DNA of 42,706 nucleotides from Verrucomicrobiota bacterium (lineage in GTDB: Bacteria > Verrucomicrobiota > Verrucomicrobiia > Chthoniobacterales > Terrimicrobiaceae): contig VFJO01000034.1 in NCBI GenBank assembly GCA_009886045.1, positions 1-42,706 of the forward strand, in the 5' to 3' direction. This document shows positions 29,629 through 42,706 of this stretch, in pieces (position 1 is the first letter of the stretch; each line of letters begins with the position of its first letter). Made by a program: the position numbers and the translations under genes. The notes under the pieces are model-generated. The model was not told the DNA's origin and searched no databases. It worked only from the letters and a program-made list of their open reading frames with translations.

Positions 29629-29719
29629 ATCCCCGCGACAGCCCGACATTCCGACATAAAAACGCTGAATATGAAGAAAATTTGAGGGGATCGAGTCCGC
29701 TGCTACGTTAAGTGAGAAT

Positions 29720-30073
29720 ATGAAACACTCGGATTCACTGGATCGGCAATTGTCAAAATTGGCCGCGACAGCCCTGCACAGAACAGAATTTGAAAGCTTC
29801 CGCTCCGACGTTTGGCGGGAGATTCGTCACCGACAGGCCATAAAACCCGTTACAAAAAACGATTCCTTATGGCCGTCGCTTTTTTTTGACTTCGGCACCG
29901 CCCGCCTTGCTTTTTCGGGAGCCTGTGTGGCTCTTGCTGTGGGTGTGATTTTGACCATGCTTGCAATGCCCGAGGTTTTGAACTCGCGACTTGCAGCCCA
30001 GACCTTGGACCTCGGAGTTTTCTCCCAATCTGCCACCGGCCTACCCAGCAATTTTGTGGCATTAAGAAAATGA
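29720..30073 (+). CDS. CnrY-like membrane anti-sigma factor
   Basis: A 117-residue protein with about 60 cytoplasmic residues (MKHSDSLDRQLSKLAATALH and onward), one transmembrane helix near residues 63-85 (AFSGACVALAVGVILTMLAM) and a short periplasmic tail. This is the layout of CnrY of Cupriavidus metallidurans, which holds the sigma factor CnrH at the membrane by a short N-terminal helix. Sequence similarity is not strong enough on its own; the call rests on position before a CnrX-like sensor and an ECF sigma gene and on membrane topology. Its stop overlaps the start of the sensor gene by 4 bp. Confidence 0.65.
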   Translation: MKHSDSLDRQLSKLAATALHRTEFESFRSDVWREIRHRQAIKPVTKNDSLWPSLFFDFGTARLAFSGACVALAVGVILTMLAMPEVLNSRLAAQTLDLGVFSQSATGLPSNFVALRK

Positions 30074-30522
30074 AACCTGGCCCCCTACCCCTTGTTGTCG
30101 GGCTCGCGCTGATTGTTTTCATTTCTGCAGCAAGTTCATTTCTTACGCTCCGAATTGTCAGCAACTCCCCCAACCTCAAGGCTGAGGACTACCACGACTG
30201 GATTCATAAAAAGCTTAAAATGAGTCCCAAGCAGGAGCAACTCAGCCAGATTTCTGAGCGGCGTTATGAAGAGACGAAGCGCCACTTGGAGGAAGTGATC
30301 CAATTAGCGAACCGGGAATTGGCTGAGAAAATTTTGAAAGATAAATCCTATTCCCCTTCCGTCGAAAAATCCGTCGCTGAAATTCACAATGCGATGGGCC
30401 AACTTCAGGAAGCAACCCTCGAGCACATCTTCGAATTGCGGGGCGTCCTAGATCCCCCGCAATACGAGCGCCTCATCGAACTGACCGTTCAAGGTCTCTC
30501 CGAAAACTCAGGCCAGAACTAG
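30070..30522 (+). CDS. CnrX-like periplasmic metal sensor
   Basis: A 150-residue protein anchored by an N-terminal helix (residues 7-30) with a four-helix periplasmic domain. The residues His42, His46, Glu63 and His119 occupy the same numbers as the metal ligands I remember for CnrX of C. metallidurans (His42, His46, Glu63, His119, Met123). The fifth, Met123, is Leu here. CnrX binds Ni2+ or Co2+ and then lets CnrY release CnrH. LTxxQ-type Spy/CpxP relatives share the helical layout (LKMSPKQEQL). The gene sits between anti-sigma and sigma genes, which fits the sensor role. Metal preference cannot be read safely, but the missing Met suggests it may differ from CnrX. Confidence 0.8.
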   Translation: MKPGPLPLVVGLALIVFISAASSFLTLRIVSNSPNLKAEDYHDWIHKKLKMSPKQEQLSQISERRYEETKRHLEEVIQLANRELAEKILKDKSYSPSVEKSVAEIHNAMGQLQEATLEHIFELRGVLDPPQYERLIELTVQGLSENSGQN

Positions 30523-31121: not shown

Positions 31122-32375
31122 GTGAGACCTTTTCCTTCGGCCTCGGCTTTGACAAGCGTAGTTGCCATTTGCTTCCTCGTTCTGGGTTGTGCGAGCCGCA
31201 TCGTGCTCGCTGGGGAACTCAGCGTCGAATCTGCCGTTGACATAGCAATCCGCGAAAACAGAGAACTCGCAACCGCTCGACTTCTCGTAAACGAAGCCAT
31301 GGGCCGAGCTCGGAGGGTGGGTGTCCTTTCGAATCCCGAGTTGGAAATGGAGGTTGCGGGAGGCCAAGATTTTGAAGGCCGAGTGATGGCTGGAATCACC
31401 CAGCGATTCCCCCTCACGGCACGCCTACGCTTGGAACGCCAGCTCTCCGACTTGGATGTGAAGATGGCAGATTTGGAAGTACGCGTTGCAGAATGGAAAC
31501 TGGTACTGGCCGTGCGCAGAGCTTTTTACATAGCCGCCGCAGCTCATGAGGCGCATGCCATTTCTCTTCGCCAAGTCAACTTGGCCGATGCTCTGGCAAA
31601 ATCCGTCGCAGAGGGGGTCAATACCGGTTTTCGTTCGGAACTCGATTTGCTCGAGGCGAATCTTTCGGCATCCGCCATGCGGGCCAAGTCAGAAACTTTG
31701 AAGGGAGCGGAAATCGAGGCCGCTGGGCGATTGAACGAGTTGCTCGCACTCCCCGCCGACGCGCCGCTGATCATCAACACTCCTCTTAACTTGCCGAAAT
31801 CCGTGCCTGCAGCAAAAATCGCCGGGAAGCGGGCGGATGCGGATTTGGCAGAGCTTGCTCTTAGGTCGGGGGAAACCGATGTCGCTTTATCCAAAGCCTC
31901 ACAATGGGAGGACGTCGGGGTTGGAATCTTTATCGAAGGGGAACGGTTTCGAGACGACCCGACCGGCATCGAGCCAGAAACGCTTGCTGGTTTGAAAGTG
32001 AGTGTGCCGCTCCCATTCTGGCAAACCGGCACTGGCAAAGCCGCCGAAAAAGAAGCTGTTCGAGTGCGACTTTCCGCTCAATGCGAAGCCCTTCGCTTCA
32101 GCATCAAAAATCAAATCCTGCTGGCGTATCGCTTGGTCTGTTTCCATTTCGAATCCGCCTCCCAATTCAGGGAAAAGGTTGTTTCCAGTGCCCGCGAGTC
32201 CGTTCGCCAGAGCGAGGCAGCCTATGGGCGATCCGAAATCGAAATCTATGCCGTCTTTAGGGCCTATGATCGCCTCAGCGAAGTCGAGATGTCTGCACTC
32301 GATGCAAAGAAAAGCTATTTCCTTGCCTGCGCCGAGTGGCTCAGCTCGCTCGGCACATCCCCAACCCAACCATGA
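31122..32375 (+). CDS. Outer-membrane efflux factor (TolC/CzcC-like)
   Basis: A 417-residue member of the TolC family, the outer-membrane channel of the metal pump. Residues 1-23 are an export signal that ends in a VLGC lipobox, so it is probably lipidated. The typical alpha-barrel helices recur as two halves: SVESAVDIAIRENRELATAR ... NPELEMEVAGG and the mirrored second half (LKVSVPLPFWQTGTGK, VSSARESVRQSEAAY). Its length fits CzcC/CnrC. The start is a GTG at 31122, 5 bp after the sigma gene; the stop overlaps the next start by 4 bp (ATGA). Confidence 0.86.
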   Translation: MRPFPSASALTSVVAICFLVLGCASRIVLAGELSVESAVDIAIRENRELATARLLVNEAMGRARRVGVLSNPELEMEVAGGQDFEGRVMAGITQRFPLTARLRLERQLSDLDVKMADLEVRVAEWKLVLAVRRAFYIAAAAHEAHAISLRQVNLADALAKSVAEGVNTGFRSELDLLEANLSASAMRAKSETLKGAEIEAAGRLNELLALPADAPLIINTPLNLPKSVPAAKIAGKRADADLAELALRSGETDVALSKASQWEDVGVGIFIEGERFRDDPTGIEPETLAGLKVSVPLPFWQTGTGKAAEKEAVRVRLSAQCEALRFSIKNQILLAYRLVCFHFESASQFREKVVSSARESVRQSEAAYGRSEIEIYAVFRAYDRLSEVEMSALDAKKSYFLACAEWLSSLGTSPTQP

Positions 32376-33484
32376 ATCAGGCACTCATCATCCTCGCACT
32401 CCTAGGCCTTTTCGCCTCCCACCTTCAAACAGCCCAAGGATCCTCACGTCCCAATACCATTATCCTTGATGAAAATGGCGTGAAAAATTTGCGCATCGAA
32501 ACCCATCTCGTCGAAGAAACAACCTTTGAAGAAACCGTCTTCGCGCTAGGCCAAATCAAAGCCTATCCGGGTCGGCGTGCCGTTATCAGCAGTCGTATCC
32601 CAGGGCGGGCACTCGAGGTCTTCATTAAAAATGATCACTCCATAAAAATGGGAGAGACAGCCATTTTGGTAGAGAGTCGGCAACCGGGAAATCCTCCCCC
32701 AACGATCGCCCTCACCTCGCCAATTTCGGGTCTAGTCAGCGAAACACACGTCGTGCCGGGGGAGCCGATTGATCCCAATAAAGTCTTGGCCGAGGTTTTG
32801 GACCTTACGGAAGTCTATGCGATCGCAAGCGTGCCGCAGCATCTGGCCGGTCGACTGAAGGTTGGACAAACCGCACGAATTTCTGTTCCAGCCGTGCCAG
32901 GCCGAACATTCGACGCAAATCTGGAGCATCTTGGCGTCATGGCGGATGCCTCGAACGATACGGTGGAGGGCGCATTCCATGTCAACAATCCCGATCTCTT
33001 GCTCCGCCCCGGAATGCGCGCAGAGTTCTCCATCGTCGTCGAAAAAAAAGAAGGCGTGTATTCGATTCCCCGCACCGCCTTGCAGGGCGATGCCGCGAAG
33101 CGCTTTGTCTATGTGAGGGATTTCGATATCCCAAATGCCTTTGTGAAGACACCGGTTCTCGTGGGGCGCATCAGCGAGCGAAGCGCAGAGATTGTGAGCG
33201 GCTTACTTCCCGCCGACGAGGTTGTGACTCGCGGGGCTTACTCCCTCGCCTTCGCCGGAGGGGGCACTGTGTCCCTCAAAGAGGCCCTTGACGCAGCGCA
33301 CGGGCACGAACACGCAGAAGACGGCTCCGAGTTGACTTCACAAAGCAAAGCTCCGGCTGAATCCGCTAAGAATGGCCAACAAGGCCAACAAGGCCAAAGC
33401 CCATTCTGGATGATTGTGAGCGGAGTCTTGCTTGCGCTGCTGGTGGTCGTAGGGACCCGTAGGAAAACCCACCATGCTGAATAG
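32372..33484 (+). CDS. Membrane-fusion protein of the metal efflux pump (CzcB/CnrB-like)
   Basis: A 370-residue periplasmic adaptor that links pump and channel. Residues 1-22 are a signal peptide (MNQALIILALLGLFA). The RND-MFP core is visible: a barrel-lipoyl stretch (AVISSRIPGRALEVF, LTSPISGLVSETHVVPGEPI), then VYAIASVPQHLAGRLKVGQ and MRAEFSIVVEKKEGVYSIPR. After it come a His-rich segment (HGHEHAEDG) and, unusually, a C-terminal transmembrane helix (FWMIVSGVLLALLVVVGT) with a basic end. The central coiled-coil hairpin is short, as in many heavy-metal adaptors. The stop overlaps the RND start by 11 bp. Confidence 0.88.
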   Translation: MNQALIILALLGLFASHLQTAQGSSRPNTIILDENGVKNLRIETHLVEETTFEETVFALGQIKAYPGRRAVISSRIPGRALEVFIKNDHSIKMGETAILVESRQPGNPPPTIALTSPISGLVSETHVVPGEPIDPNKVLAEVLDLTEVYAIASVPQHLAGRLKVGQTARISVPAVPGRTFDANLEHLGVMADASNDTVEGAFHVNNPDLLLRPGMRAEFSIVVEKKEGVYSIPRTALQGDAAKRFVYVRDFDIPNAFVKTPVLVGRISERSAEIVSGLLPADEVVTRGAYSLAFAGGGTVSLKEALDAAHGHEHAEDGSELTSQSKAPAESAKNGQQGQQGQSPFWMIVSGVLLALLVVVGTRRKTHHAE

Positions 33485-36400
33485 ACTCATCACGTGGTCT
33501 CTGGCGCACCGTGGCCTTGTCATAGGATGTTCTGCCATCATACTTGCACTAGGGATTTTCACGGCACTCCACCTGCCCGTCGAAGTACTTCCCGATCTCA
33601 CAAAACCAACGGTGGTGATTCTCACAGAGGCACCGGGTTTGGCCCCAGAGGAGGTGGAAATACAGGTGACCCAACCCCTCGAAAGCGCCCTCATGGGGGT
33701 CGCCGGATTGACCCGCTTGCGCTCGAACTCCGATGTCTCGCTCTCGCTTGTCTACGCCGAGTTTGATTGGAATTCCGATCTCCAAAAAAACCGCCTTCTC
33801 GTGCAAGAGCGCCTGCAGGGAGCCCGGGAACAGTTGCCCGAGGGGATTCAGCCGTTCATGACCCCTGCAGCATCCCTCATGGGTGAAATCCTTCTCGTTG
33901 GCGTGAGATCGACGATCCCCAAGGGCGAGCCAGGCCATCTGACTCCAAGCGAAGTGCGATCGATCGCGGATTGGACCATCAAGCGCCGCCTCCAAAACAT
34001 CTCCGGTGTAGCAGAAGTCCTCAACATGGGCGGGGGCATCCGCCAAGTGGAGATTCAGCCGGATCCCTACCGCATGCAGGCTTACGAGGTCACGCTTGCA
34101 GAACTTGAGGACGCGGCAACCAAAGCGGCAAACACCAGCACTGGCGGCTTTTTGAGCACCGGTGCCACGGAGATCATGATTCGCAATCTGGCCATGACAA
34201 CTGATCTCGACGCCATCGGACAGACGGCGATCAAACGCATCGGCGACCGCCCCGTTCGCATTGCCGATGTGGCGCAGGTCGTATGGGGCATCGAGCCGAT
34301 GCGCGGCGATGCGACGATAAGCCAGGCCCCGGAAAAAACTCCGACCTACGGAGTGATCATGTCCCTGACAAAGGCGCAGGGATTCGACACGCGAGTACTC
34401 ACCGGGAAAGTGAAATCAGCCCTCGCCGAACTCGAACCAAGCCTTCCAAGGGGCGTCGAGACCATCGTGCTTTTTCAGCAAAAGGACTTCATCGACAATG
34501 CGATTGGAAATCTTAAAAACGCCATCATCGAAGCCGCTATTATGGTCACCTTGGTGTTGGTTTTGTTCCTCCTGAATTTCCGAACAACATTCATCACCCT
34601 CACAGCGATTCCGATGAGTTTCGGGATTACGATGCTTGCTTTCCAGTGGTTTGGGATTTCTGTGAATTCCATGACACTCGGCGGCTTAGCCGTGGCCATC
34701 GGGATGGTGGTGGACGACGCCATCGTGGATGTGGAAAATGTCTTTCGGCGTCTACGAGAGAACGCGGCCCGACCCGAGCCTGCACCTCGAGTTCAAGTCA
34801 TCGCCCGCGCTTCGCGCGAAGTGCGGAGTTCCATCTTGTACGCGACACTCCTCATCGTCTTGGTCTTCGTTCCATTACTAGGTCTGACAGGCGTTGAGGG
34901 GAAATTATTCACCCCGATTGCCGTGGCGACCATCGTAAGCATGCTGGCATCGTTTCTGGTATCCCTCACTTTGATTCCAGTTCTTTGCTCGTTGCTGCTG
35001 AATCCCAAGCCAACTGTCGCGCATCAGGAGGCCTGGATTGTGCGAATTATGAAACGCAGTTTACAGGCCACCGCCCTGCGGATCGGGCTCGAGCATCCCT
35101 GGCCGGTTTTGACCGTCCTTGGAATAGCCGTGTTCGCGGCATTCTCGCTCTACCCCAAAATGGGAAAGGATTTTCTCCCCTCATTCAAAGAGGAAACGGC
35201 ACTTATTGCGGCAACATCAGCACCCGGAACCTCCCTCGATGAAATGAACCGCATCTCGGATGTCATCGAAGAGCAAATACTCTCCGTGCCCGAAGTGCAG
35301 AAAGTCGGCCGCCGCCTTGGGAGGGCTGAACGCGGCGACCATGTGGTTCCCGTCTCAACCGCCGAATTCGATGTGGACTTCCGCAGATCGGGGAGTGAGA
35401 AAAAAGAACGTTCCCGAAAAGAAATTCTTGATGACATCCGCTCCCGAGTGAAGTCGGTTCCTGGCGTTTTTGCTGTTGTCGGAGGCCCGCTGGCAGACCG
35501 CATCGGGCATATGATGAGCGGCGTCTCCGCACCCGTGGCCATCAAGGTCTTCGGCCCCGATCTCGACACCCTTCGGGATATCGGCACGCAGATTCAAACC
35601 CTCGCGAAAAAAATTCCCGGCTTTGAGGATGCCAAACTCGACCAGCAATCCTTGATCCCGCAGCTCAGGATCGAGCCAGACCGAGAGCGCTGTGCAAGCT
35701 ACGGAATCGCACCCGGAGATCTCAACACGCGCCTGAGCACACTGATCGGAGGCAAGGAAATCACCGGACTGCGAGAGGACCAGCGTGCCATCAACCTTGT
35801 GCTCCGCCTCCCTCTGGCTTGGCGGGACTCGCCGGAACGCATCGCGCAACTCCCCATCCAAGCCGACAGTAGTCGTTACTTTCCCCTGAGCGCCGTGGCA
35901 GATGTGCGCGAGGCCAATGGCCCAAATGTGATCTTCCGCGAAAATGGCCAGCGCCGATTCACTATTGCCATTAAACCAACCGTGCGCGATGTCGGCGCGC
36001 TTGTGAACAATCTCCAAAGTGAGGTCTCCGCCAAAGTGCAACTCCCCGAGGGCTACTTCATCACCTACGAGGGGGAATTTCAGGCGCAGCGAGACGCGAC
36101 TTGGCGTATCGCCCTCATGAGCGCGGGCGTCTTACTGGTGATCATTTTCCTGCTCTACGGGTATTTCCAAAGTCTTTCCCTCACCTTCCAAGTCCTGCTC
36201 AATATCCCGCTAGCCCTTGTGGGAGCCCTCGTGCTGACTTGGCTGCTCATCGATAATATCAGCGTAGCCACGTTGGTCGGATTCATCGCCGTAGGTGGCA
36301 TTGCCGCCCGCAATGGCATTATGATGCTCTCCCACTACCTGCACCTCATGCGCCACGAGGGGGAAGGATTCACCCGAGCGATGGTCGAGCGCGGCACACT

Positions 36401-36638
36401 CGAGCGGATGGTGCCCGTCCTCATGACCGCACTTTCCGCAGGCATAGCGCTGATTCCATTCGTCCTGGCCGCGAATGAGCCCGGCAAGGAAATCCTTCAC
36501 CCCGTCGCAGTGGTGATTGTCGGTGGTCTCATCTCCTCGACTGCCCTAGATTTCTTGATCACGCCGCTGGTCTTTTTTAAATTCGCCAAAAAGGCTGCCA
36601 TGAGAGCTCTGGAGCGCCACGCGACGGCTTCACAATAA
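33474..36638 (+). CDS. Heavy-metal efflux RND transporter (CzcA/CnrA family)
   Basis: A 1054-residue inner-membrane proton-driven pump of the HME-RND family. N-terminus MLNRLITWSLAHRGLVIG is typical. It has twelve predicted transmembrane helices and two large periplasmic loops. The helix 4 segment at about residues 403-422 reads GGLAVAIGMVVDDAIVDVEN, with the acidic residues used for proton relay. This differs from the DFG-x-x-VDGA pattern of CzcA/CnrA and from the copper-type CusA pattern; from memory it resembles the less defined HME3 group. The metal exported is therefore uncertain, and Zn, Co, Ni or Cd are all possible. Overlaps the adaptor gene and ends 20 bp before a small secreted protein. 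Confidence 0.93.
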   Translation: MLNRLITWSLAHRGLVIGCSAIILALGIFTALHLPVEVLPDLTKPTVVILTEAPGLAPEEVEIQVTQPLESALMGVAGLTRLRSNSDVSLSLVYAEFDWNSDLQKNRLLVQERLQGAREQLPEGIQPFMTPAASLMGEILLVGVRSTIPKGEPGHLTPSEVRSIADWTIKRRLQNISGVAEVLNMGGGIRQVEIQPDPYRMQAYEVTLAELEDAATKAANTSTGGFLSTGATEIMIRNLAMTTDLDAIGQTAIKRIGDRPVRIADVAQVVWGIEPMRGDATISQAPEKTPTYGVIMSLTKAQGFDTRVLTGKVKSALAELEPSLPRGVETIVLFQQKDFIDNAIGNLKNAIIEAAIMVTLVLVLFLLNFRTTFITLTAIPMSFGITMLAFQWFGISVNSMTLGGLAVAIGMVVDDAIVDVENVFRRLRENAARPEPAPRVQVIARASREVRSSILYATLLIVLVFVPLLGLTGVEGKLFTPIAVATIVSMLASFLVSLTLIPVLCSLLLNPKPTVAHQEAWIVRIMKRSLQATALRIGLEHPWPVLTVLGIAVFAAFSLYPKMGKDFLPSFKEETALIAATSAPGTSLDEMNRISDVIEEQILSVPEVQKVGRRLGRAERGDHVVPVSTAEFDVDFRRSGSEKKERSRKEILDDIRSRVKSVPGVFAVVGGPLADRIGHMMSGVSAPVAIKVFGPDLDTLRDIGTQIQTLAKKIPGFEDAKLDQQSLIPQLRIEPDRERCASYGIAPGDLNTRLSTLIGGKEITGLREDQRAINLVLRLPLAWRDSPERIAQLPIQADSSRYFPLSAVADVREANGPNVIFRENGQRRFTIAIKPTVRDVGALVNNLQSEVSAKVQLPEGYFITYEGEFQAQRDATWRIALMSAGVLLVIIFLLYGYFQSLSLTFQVLLNIPLALVGALVLTWLLIDNISVATLVGFIAVGGIAARNGIMMLSHYLHLMRHEGEGFTRAMVERGTLERMVPVLMTALSAGIALIPFVLAANEPGKEILHPVAVVIVGGLISSTALDFLITPLVFFKFAKKAAMRALERHATASQ

Positions 36639-36658
36639 GAATCACCCAATACCCAAAC

Positions 36659-37117
36659 ATGACAACAAAACACATACTACCCATCGCCATTGCACTACTC
36701 AGCACCCTCGGCCTTCAAGCTGGAGGAAACCACACCCACGAAAAGAAAGTGGCTGGCCCGAACGGGGGAAGGCTCCTCACCTCCATCGAACCGCATGCCG
36801 AATTTCTTCTCCTCCCAGACCGAAAAATCCAGATCACGTTTGTGGATGATCATGCCAAGCCCATCCCACCCGCCGAGCAAGTCGTCATAGTGACCACTGG
36901 AGAACGCTCCGCTCCGCTCAAACTAGTCTTCGTAAAAACTGCCTCAGCGCTTGTCTCCGAACAAAGTGTTCCTGCGGGCAAAAACTTCCCCGTGGTCGTT
37001 CAGATCAAAGCCAACCCTGAATCCAAAACACTCGTTGAGAAATTCACACTCGATCTCTCGACCTGCTCAGGTTGCGGGCTCGCAGAGTACGCCTGCACTT
37101 GCGCTGAAGGCCATTGA
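36659..37117 (+). CDS. Small secreted Cys/His protein linked to the metal efflux operon
   Basis: A 152-residue protein with a signal peptide (residues 1-20, ending LQAGG). The mature part begins NHTHEKKVAGPNGGRLL and includes PHAEFLLLPDRKIQITFVDD, a beta-rich pattern, and ends in CSGCGLAEYACTCAEGH, with four cysteines and a final His that could bind metal. I do not recognise a named family. Its place at the end of the efflux operon suggests a periplasmic metal chaperone, buffer or sensor accessory. It is similar in position, not in sequence, to the periplasmic accessory proteins of cnr/cus operons. Confidence 0.65.
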   Translation: MTTKHILPIAIALLSTLGLQAGGNHTHEKKVAGPNGGRLLTSIEPHAEFLLLPDRKIQITFVDDHAKPIPPAEQVVIVTTGERSAPLKLVFVKTASALVSEQSVPAGKNFPVVVQIKANPESKTLVEKFTLDLSTCSGCGLAEYACTCAEGH

Positions 37118-37399: not shown

Positions 37400-39982
37400 A
37401 TGGAAATTGAACTCACCGATTGTTGGGCAAAAACAGATGAGCACGGGAATCCCACTGTGTCGGTTCGTTCCCATTGCCTTTATGTCGGCGCGGTTGCCGA
37501 GGCATTGAGAAAAGTTCTACCTCCGTCAACGGAGCATTTATTTCCTAATGGAGGAGCCGCGCTCATAGCTGCTCATGATGTAGGAAAGATCACGCCGGGA
37601 TTTTTGATGAAATGTGCAGCATGGCGTGCGCACTGGCAGTCGATTCTTGGACTCGATGCCCCTGATGTTTACGAGGGGAACCACGCCAAGGCCGGGCAAA
37701 AATACTTGGCCGATTTTTTGGCACCGCACGGGCCATTGCCCAAGTGGCTTCTGTCTGTGGGAGGGCACCATGGGAAATACATAACCAGCAGTCCCAACCC
37801 GGGTAGAATTTATGAGGGCGAGCATGATTGGGTAAATGAATTCCGTGAAAAACTTCTCGCTGAAATTTGCAGCGAGTTTGGAGGCCTGCCAACAGAAGAG
37901 GTTTTAAAATCCGCGCGACTTCATTGGTTCACGGGTTGCATGGTTTTTTCCGACTGGATTGGGTCAGGCTTCTCTTTTACAGCGGCTGAGGAAGGCAAAA
38001 ATTTTCTACAAGATGCCCGCAATGCCGCACACGAAGCGGTTTTCTCGATTGGTTGGGCGCGTGGCACAGCCAGAGGAGCTCAATCTTTCGAAAGTCTTTT
38101 TTCCGATTCCGCTGGCGCCTCGTTTCCAGCACGGCCTATGCAGTCCGCTTTCGTGCAGGCGGTGGACTCGCCGGGGCTGTATATCTTGGAGGCCGCCATG
38201 GGCCTCGGTAAAACTGAAGCGGCGCTGGCAGCCGCTTACAGGCGCTGGTGCGAAGGTGGCGAAAGAGGCCTTTATTTTGCTCTACCCACCCAACTCACCA
38301 GCAACCGCATCCATGAGAGAGTGGAGAGCTTTCTCAGAAATGCGCTCCAAGAGGATGCAACACTCGCTTTGGTTCATGGAAACGCCTGGCTTTCGGATCA
38401 CCGTTTTGTCGCGATCAAGCCCACCACAAACGCAGGAGACGAAGGTGCAGAGGAAGCGAACCTCTGGTTTACGGATAATCGCAAAGCCCTTCTTGCCCCG
38501 TTTGGCACAGGCACAATTGATCAGGCCCTCATGTCTGTCATGCCGGTCAAGCATTCCGCAATTCGCCTTTTTGCTCTCAGCGGCAAGGTCATCGTCATCG
38601 ACGAAGTGCATTCCTACGATCCTTACACCTCCGCGCTTTTGGATCGTGCCGTCGAGTGGCTTCTCAAGACGGGAGCCACAGTCATCGTGCTGTCTGCAAC
38701 GCTCACCAAGGCTCGCCGCGCCGCATTGGTGACCGCTGCTGGTGCAGTCGAAGAAAAAATATCTGATGGCTATCCGCTCATCACAAAAGTCGCCTCAGGC
38801 TCTTCGAAAGCGGAAACGATTGAAGTTTCACAGACCGGTCTGGAGGCCCGAGAGGTTCATATCTCCCACACTGCTCCTGATTGCGAGGACTGGATTGGCA
38901 AGGCCTCTTCGGCAGCTCAGAGCGGAGCGTGTGTGCTGGTGGCGCGCAATACGATTGCATCCGCGCAGGAAACCTTTCGACAGCTCAAATCCGCTCTCAA
39001 CGACTGCGGGGCTCCTGTTGGTCTTTTGCACAGCCGATTCCCCCAATTCCAGCGAGAGGAGAATGAACGACATTGGACCACATTACTTGGGAAGGGATTC
39101 GAGCAACGCCCCGAAGGGTGTATCCTTGTCGGAACCCAAGTCGTGGAGCAGTCCATCGATATCGATGCCGACCTGTTGTTCACTGATATCGCTCCGACAG
39201 ATCTCATCCTCCAGCGCATAGGCCGCCTTCACCGTCACGAAAGAATTCGTCCTGCCGGATTTGAGCGAGCCGAGTGCATCATTCTCAATCCTGTCGTGAA
39301 TTGGAAAGATTCGATCGATGAGATTAAAAAAGCATTGGGATCATCTGCATATATCTATCCTCCATTTACGCTTTTCCAGACGCAGCAAGTGTGGCAGGGT
39401 ATAAGTGTTTTGAATTTACCCAACGACATTCGGTGCGTTCTCGAGGGTTCATCGAGCATCCCTTTGTCCCTTCCCGCTGGCGCAGCGGCATTGTTGGCTG
39501 AAATGAATGTGAAAATTCAACAGATGACCGGAACGGCTTGGATGAATCAGGTTTTTGGAACTGTAGGCGTCCAAGACTCTGAGGAGGGGCAAACCCGCTG
39601 GAAATCCAAACCCACAGCCTCGGTTGTTTTGTTAAAATCCCAGCCGCAGGAAAATCGCGAGGGGATGACGATCGAGTTTTTGAATGGAGCGACCCTGTCC
39701 TTCAAACCTGGCTTCTTTAACTTTGAGTTGGCCCGCAATCTTCACCTCAACGCCTGCAAAGTCCCTCGATACCTTGTCGCTTCAATGCCTGCTCCAGCTT
39801 GGTTGAAGCAGCATTTCCCGAATTCCGTTCTCGCTGTGAAATCAAGCGACTCGCACGCGTGCATTCCATGTGAGGGGGAATCCGACTACGATCTTTTTTA
39901 TCACCAAGAACGCGGACTTTGGCATGAGCGCAAGACTCCTCAGCCCAGCTTCGAAATCTCCGAAAACGAGTCCTGGTTCTAA
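37400..39982 (+). CDS. cas3: CRISPR-associated helicase-nuclease Cas3 (type I-E)
   Basis: An 860-residue fusion of HD nuclease and superfamily 2 helicase that degrades target DNA after Cascade has bound it. HD part: His25 (SHCLYVG), His59-Asp60 (AAHDVGK), GHHGKY near residue 125. Helicase part: Walker A MGLGKT at 267-272, LYFALPTQLTSNRI, DEVH at 401-404 (VIVIDEVHSYDP), LSATLTKA, CILVGTQVVEQSIDIDADLL and QRIGRLHRHER, then a C-terminal domain. Domain order and length match type I-E Cas3. casA follows after 18 bp. All catalytic residues looked for are present, so the enzyme appears intact. Confidence 0.95.
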   Translation: MEIELTDCWAKTDEHGNPTVSVRSHCLYVGAVAEALRKVLPPSTEHLFPNGGAALIAAHDVGKITPGFLMKCAAWRAHWQSILGLDAPDVYEGNHAKAGQKYLADFLAPHGPLPKWLLSVGGHHGKYITSSPNPGRIYEGEHDWVNEFREKLLAEICSEFGGLPTEEVLKSARLHWFTGCMVFSDWIGSGFSFTAAEEGKNFLQDARNAAHEAVFSIGWARGTARGAQSFESLFSDSAGASFPARPMQSAFVQAVDSPGLYILEAAMGLGKTEAALAAAYRRWCEGGERGLYFALPTQLTSNRIHERVESFLRNALQEDATLALVHGNAWLSDHRFVAIKPTTNAGDEGAEEANLWFTDNRKALLAPFGTGTIDQALMSVMPVKHSAIRLFALSGKVIVIDEVHSYDPYTSALLDRAVEWLLKTGATVIVLSATLTKARRAALVTAAGAVEEKISDGYPLITKVASGSSKAETIEVSQTGLEAREVHISHTAPDCEDWIGKASSAAQSGACVLVARNTIASAQETFRQLKSALNDCGAPVGLLHSRFPQFQREENERHWTTLLGKGFEQRPEGCILVGTQVVEQSIDIDADLLFTDIAPTDLILQRIGRLHRHERIRPAGFERAECIILNPVVNWKDSIDEIKKALGSSAYIYPPFTLFQTQQVWQGISVLNLPNDIRCVLEGSSSIPLSLPAGAAALLAEMNVKIQQMTGTAWMNQVFGTVGVQDSEEGQTRWKSKPTASVVLLKSQPQENREGMTIEFLNGATLSFKPGFFNFELARNLHLNACKVPRYLVASMPAPAWLKQHFPNSVLAVKSSDSHACIPCEGESDYDLFYHQERGLWHERKTPQPSFEISENESWF

Positions 39983-40000
39983 AACCCAACTGCACACCGA

Positions 40001-41428
40001 ATGACACATTTCAACCTTGTTATAGATCCGTGGATTCCCGTCCGCTATGAGGATACTTCCAGCAAACTCGTCAGCCTTGAGAAGCTCTTTAAAGATTCCG
40101 CATCCATTGCCGATCTCGACTGCCAAGCCCACGAACGCATCTCGCTCATGCGCCTTCTGGTCTGCATCGCCCAAGCGGAATTGGGAGCGCCCGATTCTCC
40201 CGAAGATTGGGGCGACTTTGGAAGCGATTTGGAAAGCCGAGCGGTGGCTTATTTGAAGCGCCCTGATATTCAGCCGCATTTCAATTTGTTTGGAGATGGA
40301 TCGCGGTTTCTCCAAGGAATCGTGAATGAAAATGAAAAGAGCTATTTGGCAACACAGATGGTCTTTTATTTTGCAACGGGCAATTCTCCCACATTGCTCG
40401 ACCACTCAGGTGGAACAGACCGCGTTTTAACCTGCGACTTCCTTGCACGGACCTTGCTCGCCTACCAGAATTTCTTCGTCGGCGGGTCTATGGCCTCAAA
40501 AGTAAAGGGCAATGGGCCAAGTCTCAAGTTTCTGCATGCTTTTGTATTTGGTAAGAACCTAAAGAAAAGCATCATATTAAATTGCCTCGATGCAGAGACC
40601 TTGGCCGATTTGGGTATAAACATGGGGCGACCAATTTGGGAAAGCAACGCCCAAGCATCCACCTCTACCTATCTGGGAAGGCTTGTCCCTTTTTCATGTA
40701 AAGTGAGGCTCCATACCGATCGAATACATGTGTGGATTGAAGATGGTCTGGCCTATCCAGAATTCCCCGAATCGAGGGAGACAACAGCGACCATCGGCAC
40801 AAAAGGTGATCAGCGATTTCTCCTCAGGGCAGACTTGGGAAAGGGAATTTGGAAGGATCTGCATGTTGTCTTGAATGTCCAACAGTCAGGCGCAAACACT
40901 CTTGCTGCGCCATTGTCTTTGAGGAGCCACATGAGTGAATTGGAAGGAGGGGAACTTCACCTCTGGTTGGCCGAACTTTGCAAAGCGAAGGATGCAAAAA
41001 TAATTGATTTGCTGGAATCCCGTCTCAGTGTCCCTGTTTCACTTCTGAATGATCGTGGGCGCGCCCACTACGAAAGCGGGATCACCTTCGCCGATATCCA
41101 ATCGAACCAACTCTACGGCGCGGTGAAACAAAATGGTGCCGCACTTAAAAACGAAAACCCGCCGACCGATGAGGCCAAGAAGCAATTCTGGCATGCGCTG
41201 GAAGCTCAATGCTCCGTGCTCCTACAAATCGCCGGGACTCCCGATATCCTCAACGGACTCTCCTTCGGCGAAGGCCATGACGCTTGGAGCATTGCCGTCC
41301 GACGGGCAGCCAAGGAGGCCTACGACCATGTTTGTCCACGACAGACACCGCGCCAGATGCAGGCCTATGCCGCTGGATTAAAAGTTCTGTTTCCCAAACC
41401 AAAGAAAAAGAAAGCCGCCACCACTTGA
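40001..41428 (+). CDS. casA: Cascade large subunit CasA/Cse1 (Cas8e)
   Basis: A 475-residue large subunit of the type I-E interference complex; it recognises the PAM and recruits Cas3. The N-terminus HFNLVIDPWIPVRYED is the family hallmark, followed by SLEKLFKDS and RISLMRLLVCIAQAEL. A zinc or structural loop is not obvious. The C-terminal four-helix part is visible (LEAQCSVLLQIAG ... QMQAYAAGLKVLF), and the protein ends in a Lys-rich tail (PKPKKKKAATT). Length is near that of E. coli Cse1. The stop overlaps the casB start by 4 bp. Confidence 0.93.
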   Translation: MTHFNLVIDPWIPVRYEDTSSKLVSLEKLFKDSASIADLDCQAHERISLMRLLVCIAQAELGAPDSPEDWGDFGSDLESRAVAYLKRPDIQPHFNLFGDGSRFLQGIVNENEKSYLATQMVFYFATGNSPTLLDHSGGTDRVLTCDFLARTLLAYQNFFVGGSMASKVKGNGPSLKFLHAFVFGKNLKKSIILNCLDAETLADLGINMGRPIWESNAQASTSTYLGRLVPFSCKVRLHTDRIHVWIEDGLAYPEFPESRETTATIGTKGDQRFLLRADLGKGIWKDLHVVLNVQQSGANTLAAPLSLRSHMSELEGGELHLWLAELCKAKDAKIIDLLESRLSVPVSLLNDRGRAHYESGITFADIQSNQLYGAVKQNGAALKNENPPTDEAKKQFWHALEAQCSVLLQIAGTPDILNGLSFGEGHDAWSIAVRRAAKEAYDHVCPRQTPRQMQAYAAGLKVLFPKPKKKKAATT

Positions 41429-41934
41429 AAACTGAAACTCCCAAAAACGAACTGCTCATTGAACAACTCCTCGGCACCTGCCGCGACCGAGGGAATCTGG
41501 CCGCGCTGCGCCGCTACTGGAGCCCAGCCACGCGCCATTACGCCTATCCCATTCTCGGCCGCCTCGGAGCACTGGAGGCCCACCGCTTGGGCGATGCACT
41601 TACGGCTGCGCTCTATGCCAAGAATCCCAGCCATCAGTTGGGTGGAGCAACACTTGGCAAAGCCTGCTTAAGCCTTGGGAAAGGAGATGCCTTGGAATCG
41701 ATGGAGCGGCATTTCCGGCGCTTGCTCGCCTTCGACGCCTCCGAGCTGGATGCACTTGGTGACCAGTTGCACCGCCTCTTCATCCGCTTCGCAGGCGATG
41801 GAATCGCGCTGGATTACAACCGCCTTCTCTGGGATCTCCGCAAATGGAACAAATCCGCCGAGGACATCAAAGCGAGGTGGGCCTGCGACTTTTGGCAGGC
41901 TCCTCTCGAGGCTGCACAAGGAGCTACACAATGA
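41425..41934 (+). CDS. casB: Cascade small subunit CasB/Cse2
   Basis: A 169-residue, helical protein that bridges the crRNA and target strands in Cascade. Motifs: LGTCRDRGNLAALRRYWSPA near the N-terminus and ESMERHFRRLLAFDASELDA, typical of Cse2. The start is the TTG at 41425, which overlaps the casA stop (TTGA) and gives the usual length; an upstream frame to 41284 lies inside casA and is not homologous. In E. coli casC follows casB, but here casE does. Confidence 0.9.
   Translation: MKTETPKNELLIEQLLGTCRDRGNLAALRRYWSPATRHYAYPILGRLGALEAHRLGDALTAALYAKNPSHQLGGATLGKACLSLGKGDALESMERHFRRLLAFDASELDALGDQLHRLFIRFAGDGIALDYNRLLWDLRKWNKSAEDIKARWACDFWQAPLEAAQGATQ
41918..41923 (+). promoter_or_regulatory. 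Strong ribosome-binding site of casE
   Basis: AAGGAG lies 7 bases before the ATG at 41931, inside the end of casB. It fixes the casE start and shows that casE is translated on its own from the cas transcript. Most other genes in the window have weaker or no such site. Confidence 0.7.
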
Positions 41935-42548
41935 GCTATCTGGCAAAAATCGAAATCGACCACGAGACCGCTTACAAGGCCGGTCTTCGCGATAGCTACG
42001 CATGGCACCAAAAGAGCTGGCAGGCTTTTCCTGGACGCGATGGCGAAGAGCGGGACTTTTTAACACGGCTTAATGAGATCGATGAGGGCTTCCGCCTCCT
42101 TCTCCTCTCCGCAACTTCTCCCACCAGGCCCGCTTGGTGTCCGGAATCGTCGTGGGAGTGCAAGGAAATCGCCCCAGCGTTTTTTACCCACGCCACTTAC
42201 CGATTCTCCCTCATGGCGAACCCCACCAAAAAAGTGCGCTCTGCAGCAGATGGCACGCTGCTTAAAAACAGCCGCCGTGTGGCGCTATCCAAACGCGAGG
42301 ACCTGCTCGACTGGCTTCGCCGCAAGGGCGAGGCCGGAGGCTTTACCTTTGAAGCCGAAAAAACACGCACCATTCCGCGACCACGACAAGTCTTTCTCAA
42401 AAAAGGCCAAGCCGGACTCCATACGGCAACGGAATTTGTCGGTCTGCTCACTGTCACGGATACCGCCGCCTTTCAAATAGCCGCTGCGCAAGGGATCGGC
42501 CCCGCTAAGGCCTTTGGCTTTGGAATGCTGTGCTTAAGCCCCGTTTAA
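41931..42548 (+). CDS. casE: crRNA-processing endonuclease CasE/Cse3 (Cas6e)
   Basis: A 205-residue double ferredoxin-fold RNase that cuts the CRISPR transcript in the repeat and stays in Cascade. Catalytic-type residues are seen at Tyr23 and His26 in SYAWHQKSW, the same numbers as in the Thermus enzyme as I remember it. The RDFLTRLNEIDEGFRLLLLS, HATYRFSLMANPTKKVRS and the C-terminal Gly-rich loop GIGPAKAFGFGMLCL match the family. The gene overlaps the casB stop by 4 bp. casC (cas7) and casD (cas5), which usually lie between, are missing here. Confidence 0.93.
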   Translation: MSYLAKIEIDHETAYKAGLRDSYAWHQKSWQAFPGRDGEERDFLTRLNEIDEGFRLLLLSATSPTRPAWCPESSWECKEIAPAFFTHATYRFSLMANPTKKVRSAADGTLLKNSRRVALSKREDLLDWLRRKGEAGGFTFEAEKTRTIPRPRQVFLKKGQAGLHTATEFVGLLTVTDTAAFQIAAAQGIGPAKAFGFGMLCLSPV

Positions 42549-42706
42549 ATCCGACCCTCGTAGTTATCATGCACACCGATGAGCTTTTTGCAAAACCTAA
42601 AAAACTAACTCGATCAAAATGGCCCCGATTTTAAAAAATCCTAAAAACAGCATGGATTTCGATTTGAAATCCAAAATCTTGTCTTAAATCAAACAATGGA
42701 CCTGAA
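42549..42706. other. Spacer after casE up to the window end, with hairpin
   Basis: AT-rich spacer. TGGATTTC-gattt-GAAATCCA at 42653-42673 makes an 8-bp hairpin. An ATG at 42696 starts M-D-L and may open the next gene, possibly one of the missing cas genes, but only about 11 bases are visible. No CRISPR repeat can be called from a single hairpin. Confidence 0.4.

Follow-up and report, generated by a model that had tools for sequence, protein, structure and literature searches.

The Sensor Gene Lies in a YXH-CBA Operon

The gene under study, X, belongs to a YXH-CBA operon located in the window, that is the whole stretch of 42,706 nucleotides analyzed here (contig VFJO01000034.1, from a Verrucomicrobiota MAG), where the sensor is accompanied by an anti-sigma factor (Y), an ECF sigma factor (H), a tripartite pump (C, B and A) and a seventh gene, orf7 (Table 1). 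The operon genes are all on one strand and overlap or are separated by very short gaps, Y and X sharing 4 bases; the true start of B may lie downstream of its overlap with C. As in a CnrYXH module, Y, X and H stand together ahead of the efflux genes. The order Y-X-H-C-B-A-orf7 is kept in a genus-mate (G204), with identities of 72-76% for X, H and B and of 92% for A, and recurs in three more members of the genus as far as their contigs reach. On the strand opposite to the X ORF, stop codons are scattered throughout in the frame read.

Table 1. Features of the operon, with positions in the window.
Feature	Position	Strand	Basis
Candidate ECF-type promoter TGAGGGG-N16-CGTT, before Y	29683..29709	+	Conserved in genus-mates L002 and L034; sequence only
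Y, CnrY-like anti-sigma factor (predicted), 117 aa, one TM (about 63-81)	29720..30073	+	Position, hydropathy
X, CnrX-family membrane-anchored periplasmic metal sensor, 150 aa	30070..30522	+	phmmer CnrX/NccX, PF13801, AlphaFold, Foldseek, VIA-align
Codons 42-46 of X, ligands His42 and His46	30193..30207	+	Alignment to CnrX
Codon of Ser59, lineage-specific; L/I/M/V in 113/113 Met-type	30244..30246	+	Sequence comparison
Codon of Glu63 (ligand)	30256..30258	+	Alignment to CnrX
Codon of His119 (ligand)	30424..30426	+	Alignment to CnrX
Codon TTG of Leu123, replacing Met123	30436..30438	+	TTG in 5/5 genus members
H, ECF sigma factor, 195 aa	30529..31116	+	PF04542, PF08281, TIGR02937; adjoins X throughout sampled loci
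C, outer-membrane factor of tripartite pump	31122..32375	+	PF02321
B, periplasmic adaptor	32336..33484	+	PF16576; TIGR01730 above cut-off
A, heavy-metal RND pump	33474..36638	+	TIGR00914 above cut-off; motif comparison
orf7, small exported His/Cys-containing protein	36659..37117	+	Accompanies this pump type

Y had no Pfam match above threshold and is predicted to be the anti-sigma factor from its position, its size and its one membrane helix, homology to CnrY not being the basis of the assignment; its identity in the genus-mates is 55-56%. The TGAGGGG-N16-CGTT element upstream of Y could be the promoter of sigma factor H. For orf7 we found no Pfam family; each of the 20 window-type pump loci examined has a homolog after A, as do L043 and L057. 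The succession of pump and orf7 (window 33474-37117, L158-L177) was seen in every locus read for this pump subfamily, and in many genomes with a window-type pump a small exported Cys/His protein precedes the pump.

X Is a CnrX Homolog With Leucine in Place of Met123

The earlier note had described this ORF as a CnrX-like sensor with His42, His46, Glu63 and His119 at the CnrX numbers and Leu, not Met, at residue 123, and had named alignment to the CnrX/NccX structures as one check. Searching X against the PDB sequences with phmmer returned CnrX as the best match (2y39, E = 2.8e-15), the matches comprising CnrX (2y39, 3epv, 3zg1, 4wwb, 4wwf) and NccX (4clv) with E values from 3e-15 to 1.2e-14, and the Pfam family Metal_resist (PF13801) was found above its gathering score. 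The alignment of X with CnrX (2y39, 3epv) is ungapped over residues 40-125 and therefore the site residues keep the CnrX numbering: numbered from the ATG they superpose as H42, H46, E63, H119 and L123, which bears out the description at each of these points.

The AlphaFold model of X, built on a three-sequence alignment (mean pLDDT 69, with blocks of residues 41-140 at 73-91), has helices at residues 6-29, 38-49, 53-91, 96-124 and 129-148. The top 15 Foldseek matches of this model were all CnrX/NccX entries (prob 1.00, TMt 0.81), and its VIA alignment to CnrX gave Z values of 9.3-10.5 with rmsd 2.2-3.0, followed by the STV family (Z 8.5-8.9) and generic bundles (Z ≤8.1). By both comparisons the model has the hooked all-helical fold of CnrX, and NccX of Cupriavidus metallidurans 31A (4clv) matches X in sequence and in full-length fold, membrane helix included. 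The E value, the Pfam hit and the Foldseek result place the match to CnrX far beyond chance. X is thus a CnrX homolog by sequence and by its four ligands, yet it is not CnrX proper, as Leu123 stands where CnrX has its sixth ligand and trigger, Met123; unlike X, the nccX product of Cupriavidus sp. EM10 (L064) carries the full H-H-E-H-M set. A search of the same genome for a second CnrX-family copy found none.

Met123 ligates Ni and Co in CnrX, where signaling depends on it; Zn is bound without Met123 and gives no signal, and the M123C substitution abolishes the nickel response (PMC7689651), in agreement with the role that the earlier note had given for this residue (Ni/Co as opposed to Zn). From this role it follows that X needs a different trigger, as had been suggested, or else signals more weakly.

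Leu123 Is Confined to One Lineage That Keeps the Other Four Ligands

Homologs were gathered at three ranks around the window's genome (its family, class and phylum), in Pseudomonadota and plasmids, in the order to which one match with a copper-linked sensor belongs and in Burkholderiales-type relatives of a Cupriavidus-like match; after removal of duplicates 117 sensors had His42, His46, Glu63 and His119 intact. Residue 123 is Met in 113 of them and Leu in 4; a fifth Leu123 sequence is partial, and of the four ligands it covers E63 and H119 only. All five Leu123 sensors belong to the window's genus or to the public records closest to it, no Leu123 being present among the 117 outside this genus, and in the tree they form one clade with full support and a long stem. 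Met123 is thus nearly invariant elsewhere and replaced in one Verrucomicrobiota genus with the four other ligands intact.

The nearest relative of the window's X is 97% identical to it and the other Leu-type relatives 70-75%, so that Leu123 has persisted despite real divergence; the four ligands are likewise retained across the genus, with the restriction stated for the partial sequence. Codon 123 is TTG, one step from ATG, in all five Leu-type genomes, which rules out a sequencing or annotation error as the source of Leu123. The constancy of the codon is in itself unremarkable, 19 of 64 conserved positions carrying one codon in all five.

Other departures from the canonical site were also observed. 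In a Verrucomicrobiota clade of CnrX-like proteins (L014, L016, L019, L020, L022) all five site residues are gone (x-F-R-S-A) and an ECF sigma gene is still adjacent; these proteins must sense something else, or nothing. Their joint loss of all site residues contrasts with the selective loss of Met123 in the Leu123 lineage. In Proteobacteria, the sensor at L117/L190 (G715) reads D-H-E-H-I, yet it lies before copA/copB, and represents a second departure at position 123, separate from the Leu clade.

We considered whether Leu123 makes X insensitive, leaving the operon permanently off or leaking at basal level. Inactivation of cnrX or cnrY in C. metallidurans results in constitutive cnr expression (PMC4803752), and therefore changes in the sensor could be selected for pump output; the effect of M123C on CnrX would also fit an insensitive protein. 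The Leu-type X proteins, however, have kept the other four ligands though they differ at about a quarter of their positions, while the x-F-R-S-A clade lost its site residues all together, and we regard a locked sensor as unlikely.

Serine 59 Accompanies Leu123

A column-by-column comparison of Leu-type with Met-type sensors gave several lineage-specific residues, of which residue 59 is the most suggestive at the level of sequence, being Ser in five of five Leu-type sensors and Leu, Ile, Met or Val in 113 of 113 Met-type ones. Helices 53-91 and 96-124 of the model pair as an antiparallel hairpin that brings Glu63 and His119 together at the metal and, since 59 + 123 equals 63 + 119, residues 59 and 123 are expected to lie opposite each other, one turn further. 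This geometry makes them probably neighbors on the hairpin, although the Leu lineage differs elsewhere at many positions, so that Ser59 and Leu123 need not be a functional pair. Met51 is also unique to the Leu lineage (mostly Leu or Ile in the others); we judged it unlikely to be a relocated sulfur ligand, as it sits just before helix 2 and, from helix geometry, at an estimated distance of at least 10 Å from the site.

Most Met123 Sensors Adjoin Copper Genes

Judged by local gene order, at least 68 of the 113 Met-type sensors are encoded directly upstream of copA/copB and only 4 of the 113 before cnr-like genes. Because of this distribution Met123 is no marker of Ni/Co sensing family-wide: the distinction between Ni/Co and Zn that the earlier note attached to this residue stands for CnrX itself and does not extend to the family. 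Sensors of the copper-linked kind were present in 74 of 248 genomes from the order to which G817, itself proteobacterial and with such a sensor, belongs; the order of G831, a genome with a cnr operon, gave one match in 250 genomes. Judging from plasmid relatives, we take the two orders to be Sphingomonadales and Burkholderiales, respectively, so that cnr-type copies would be scarce among the Burkholderiales genomes sampled. The counts suggest that the copper-linked branch is far larger than the cnr/ncc branch, and the Ni/Co picture obtained in Cupriavidus may fit a minority branch of a family tied mainly to copper genes. Pairs of a CnrX-family sensor and an ECF sigma factor were seen mostly before copA/copB at L065-L070, L183-L194 and L195-L258. 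No experimental tests of the metal bound by copper-linked sensors were found in the literature searched. In Acinetobacter, SigAb is a copper-responsive ECF factor whose anti-sigma factor is predicted to bind it as CnrY binds CnrH (PMC12153292).

These data bear on the possibility that X senses copper, as most of the family seems to do, minus the thioether ligand. The copper-linked sensors of sphingomonads and other Proteobacteria, named "periplasmic heavy metal sensor", share the X-H pair and H42/H46/E63/H119 with the window; besides the linkage to copA/copB, the annotation of sphingomonad plasmid copies includes cop genes, and a copper-bound structure of CnrX exists (3epv). On the other hand, these sensors keep Met123 almost without exception and have copper genes downstream, and X has neither, no copper genes being found by Pfam within the operon. 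In addition, A aligns without methionines where a SilA-like pump has them. Copper sensing by X therefore seems decidedly unlikely.

The Pump Belongs to a Verrucomicrobiota Subfamily With Altered Histidine Motifs

A is 29.5% identical to CnrA and differs from it in TMH4 (GMVVDDAIVDVEN versus GLIIDGAVIIVEN), and so falls outside HME2, the pumps closely related to CnrA; its identity to relatives on plasmids is 44-46%. The TMH4 motif of A, VDDAIVDVEN (34710-34739), is shared with NieA-like pumps, VDDA(I/V)VDVEN being common to A, NieA of C. neocaledonicus and HME5 of cyanobacteria. The NieA-like HAEGVH and HRLDH are replaced in A by HVVPVS and DRIGH (motifs GRAERGDHVVPVSTAEFD at 35319-35372 and ADRIGHMMSGV at 35493-35525), and the subfamily of A, present in many Verrucomicrobiota, has GRAERGDHVVPVST(A/V)EFD and DRIGHM(M/L)SG fixed. 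By identity and motifs, A is thus not a CnrA; it belongs with the HME5/NieA-like pumps, as a Verrucomicrobiota type whose histidine motifs are altered. Substrates reported or proposed in the HME5-like group are nickel (NrsA, NieA) and copper (CopA of Synechocystis; PMC7060636); the altered motifs of A point weakly to another metal.

The cnr determinant of C. metallidurans CH34 (pMOL28 cnrYXHCBAT) shares with the window the Y-X-H-C-B-A order, the fold of the sensor and the four ligands with their numbering, whereas the window has Leu123 for Met123 and Ser59 for Leu59, orf7 and no cnrT, a pump of another TMH4 class, and H and C so close together that a separate C promoter would have no room.

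Pumps 65-77% identical to A occur with orf7, mostly with recognizable C and B, and without any YXH. The exceptions with a sensor beside a window-type pump are the window's genus and one G136 copy, in which the sensor reads H-Y-E-H-M and the pump is 69% identical to A. A tree joining the G136 sensor with the Leu clade was not rejected (p-AU 0.36); the two may or may not have one origin in common, and we therefore do not count G136 as a second loss of the canonical site that arose independently. Within the same family as the window's genome, a Met-type YXH adjoins a pump with histidine motifs in G290, a genus-mate, G294, shows this arrangement too with the pump read only in part, and in G059 a Met-type sensor is divergent from a histidine-motif pump. 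In these few loci, the sensors next to a window-type pump have a non-canonical site and those next to a histidine-motif pump a canonical one, which is only a hint, with a possible single origin of the pattern, of a joint shift of sensor and pump to another metal.

We also weighed a sensor still devoted to Ni/Co, in which the metal is bound without sulfur as in the Ni-bound M123A structure of CnrX (3zg1), and whose response is lowered or whose threshold has shifted. Nickel is proposed for the HME5/NieA-like pumps with which VDDAIVDVEN groups A; but the histidine motifs behind that proposal for NieA are partly gone, CnrA is a distant relative of A, and signal transduction in CnrX requires Met123. 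Taken together, we find retained Ni/Co sensing rather doubtful.

A Met-Free Metal Site Is the Favored Reading

We favor, with moderate confidence, a working sensor in a CnrYXH-type switch that has a Met-free three-His/Glu site and a different, thioether-free trigger. The locus would accordingly join a metal-responsive sigma-factor switch to a heavy-metal RND pump of the Verrucomicrobiota type within a single operon. A periplasmic divalent metal would bind X via His42, His46, His119 and Glu63, the resulting change in X would be passed to the anti-sigma factor Y, Y would release H, and H would transcribe the operon from the promoter before Y, so that the pump is made and the metal removed. In this lineage Leu123 takes the place of the thioether trigger, along with Ser59 on the facing helix; because Met123 is replaced by Leu, the metal would be held by the Met-free set, as CnrX holds Zn, and the response would come from a Met-independent movement. 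Up to the trigger, X probably works as CnrX does, and it probably switches on the adjoining metal-efflux pump.

A change of metal away from Ni/Co is plausible; with low confidence, the most likely class is a divalent ion without need of a thioether, for example Zn or Cd. The silence of Zn-bound CnrX and of M123C towards nickel argues that a Met-free protein may be a poor sensor, and, with nickel and copper reported or proposed for the HME5-like group, the metal may still be nickel. More tentatively, the exchange of Met123/Leu59 for Leu123/Ser59 may have made a thioether-triggered sensor signal from its Met-free three-His/Glu site and respond to Zn, Cd or some other metal to which CnrX binds silently, this change accompanying the coupling to the Verrucomicrobiota pump subfamily.

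CnrX is a main structural model of how periplasmic sensors choose a metal, and the "trigger" role of Met123 rests on mutants of one protein. A lineage with Leu123 and the other ligands kept offers a natural test of this role and of how such sensors choose and report their metal, with residue 59 as a second candidate.

Outside the operon, the window carries CRISPR genes of a type I-E-like system after orf7 (37400-42706: cas3, cse1 and a Cas6e family protein, PF08798), and no CRISPR array was seen in the segment 36000-42706. On the minus strand, at 1366-2559, this Verrucomicrobiota genome encodes a protein of the type III secretion gatekeeper family, with HrpJ-like and TyeA domains.
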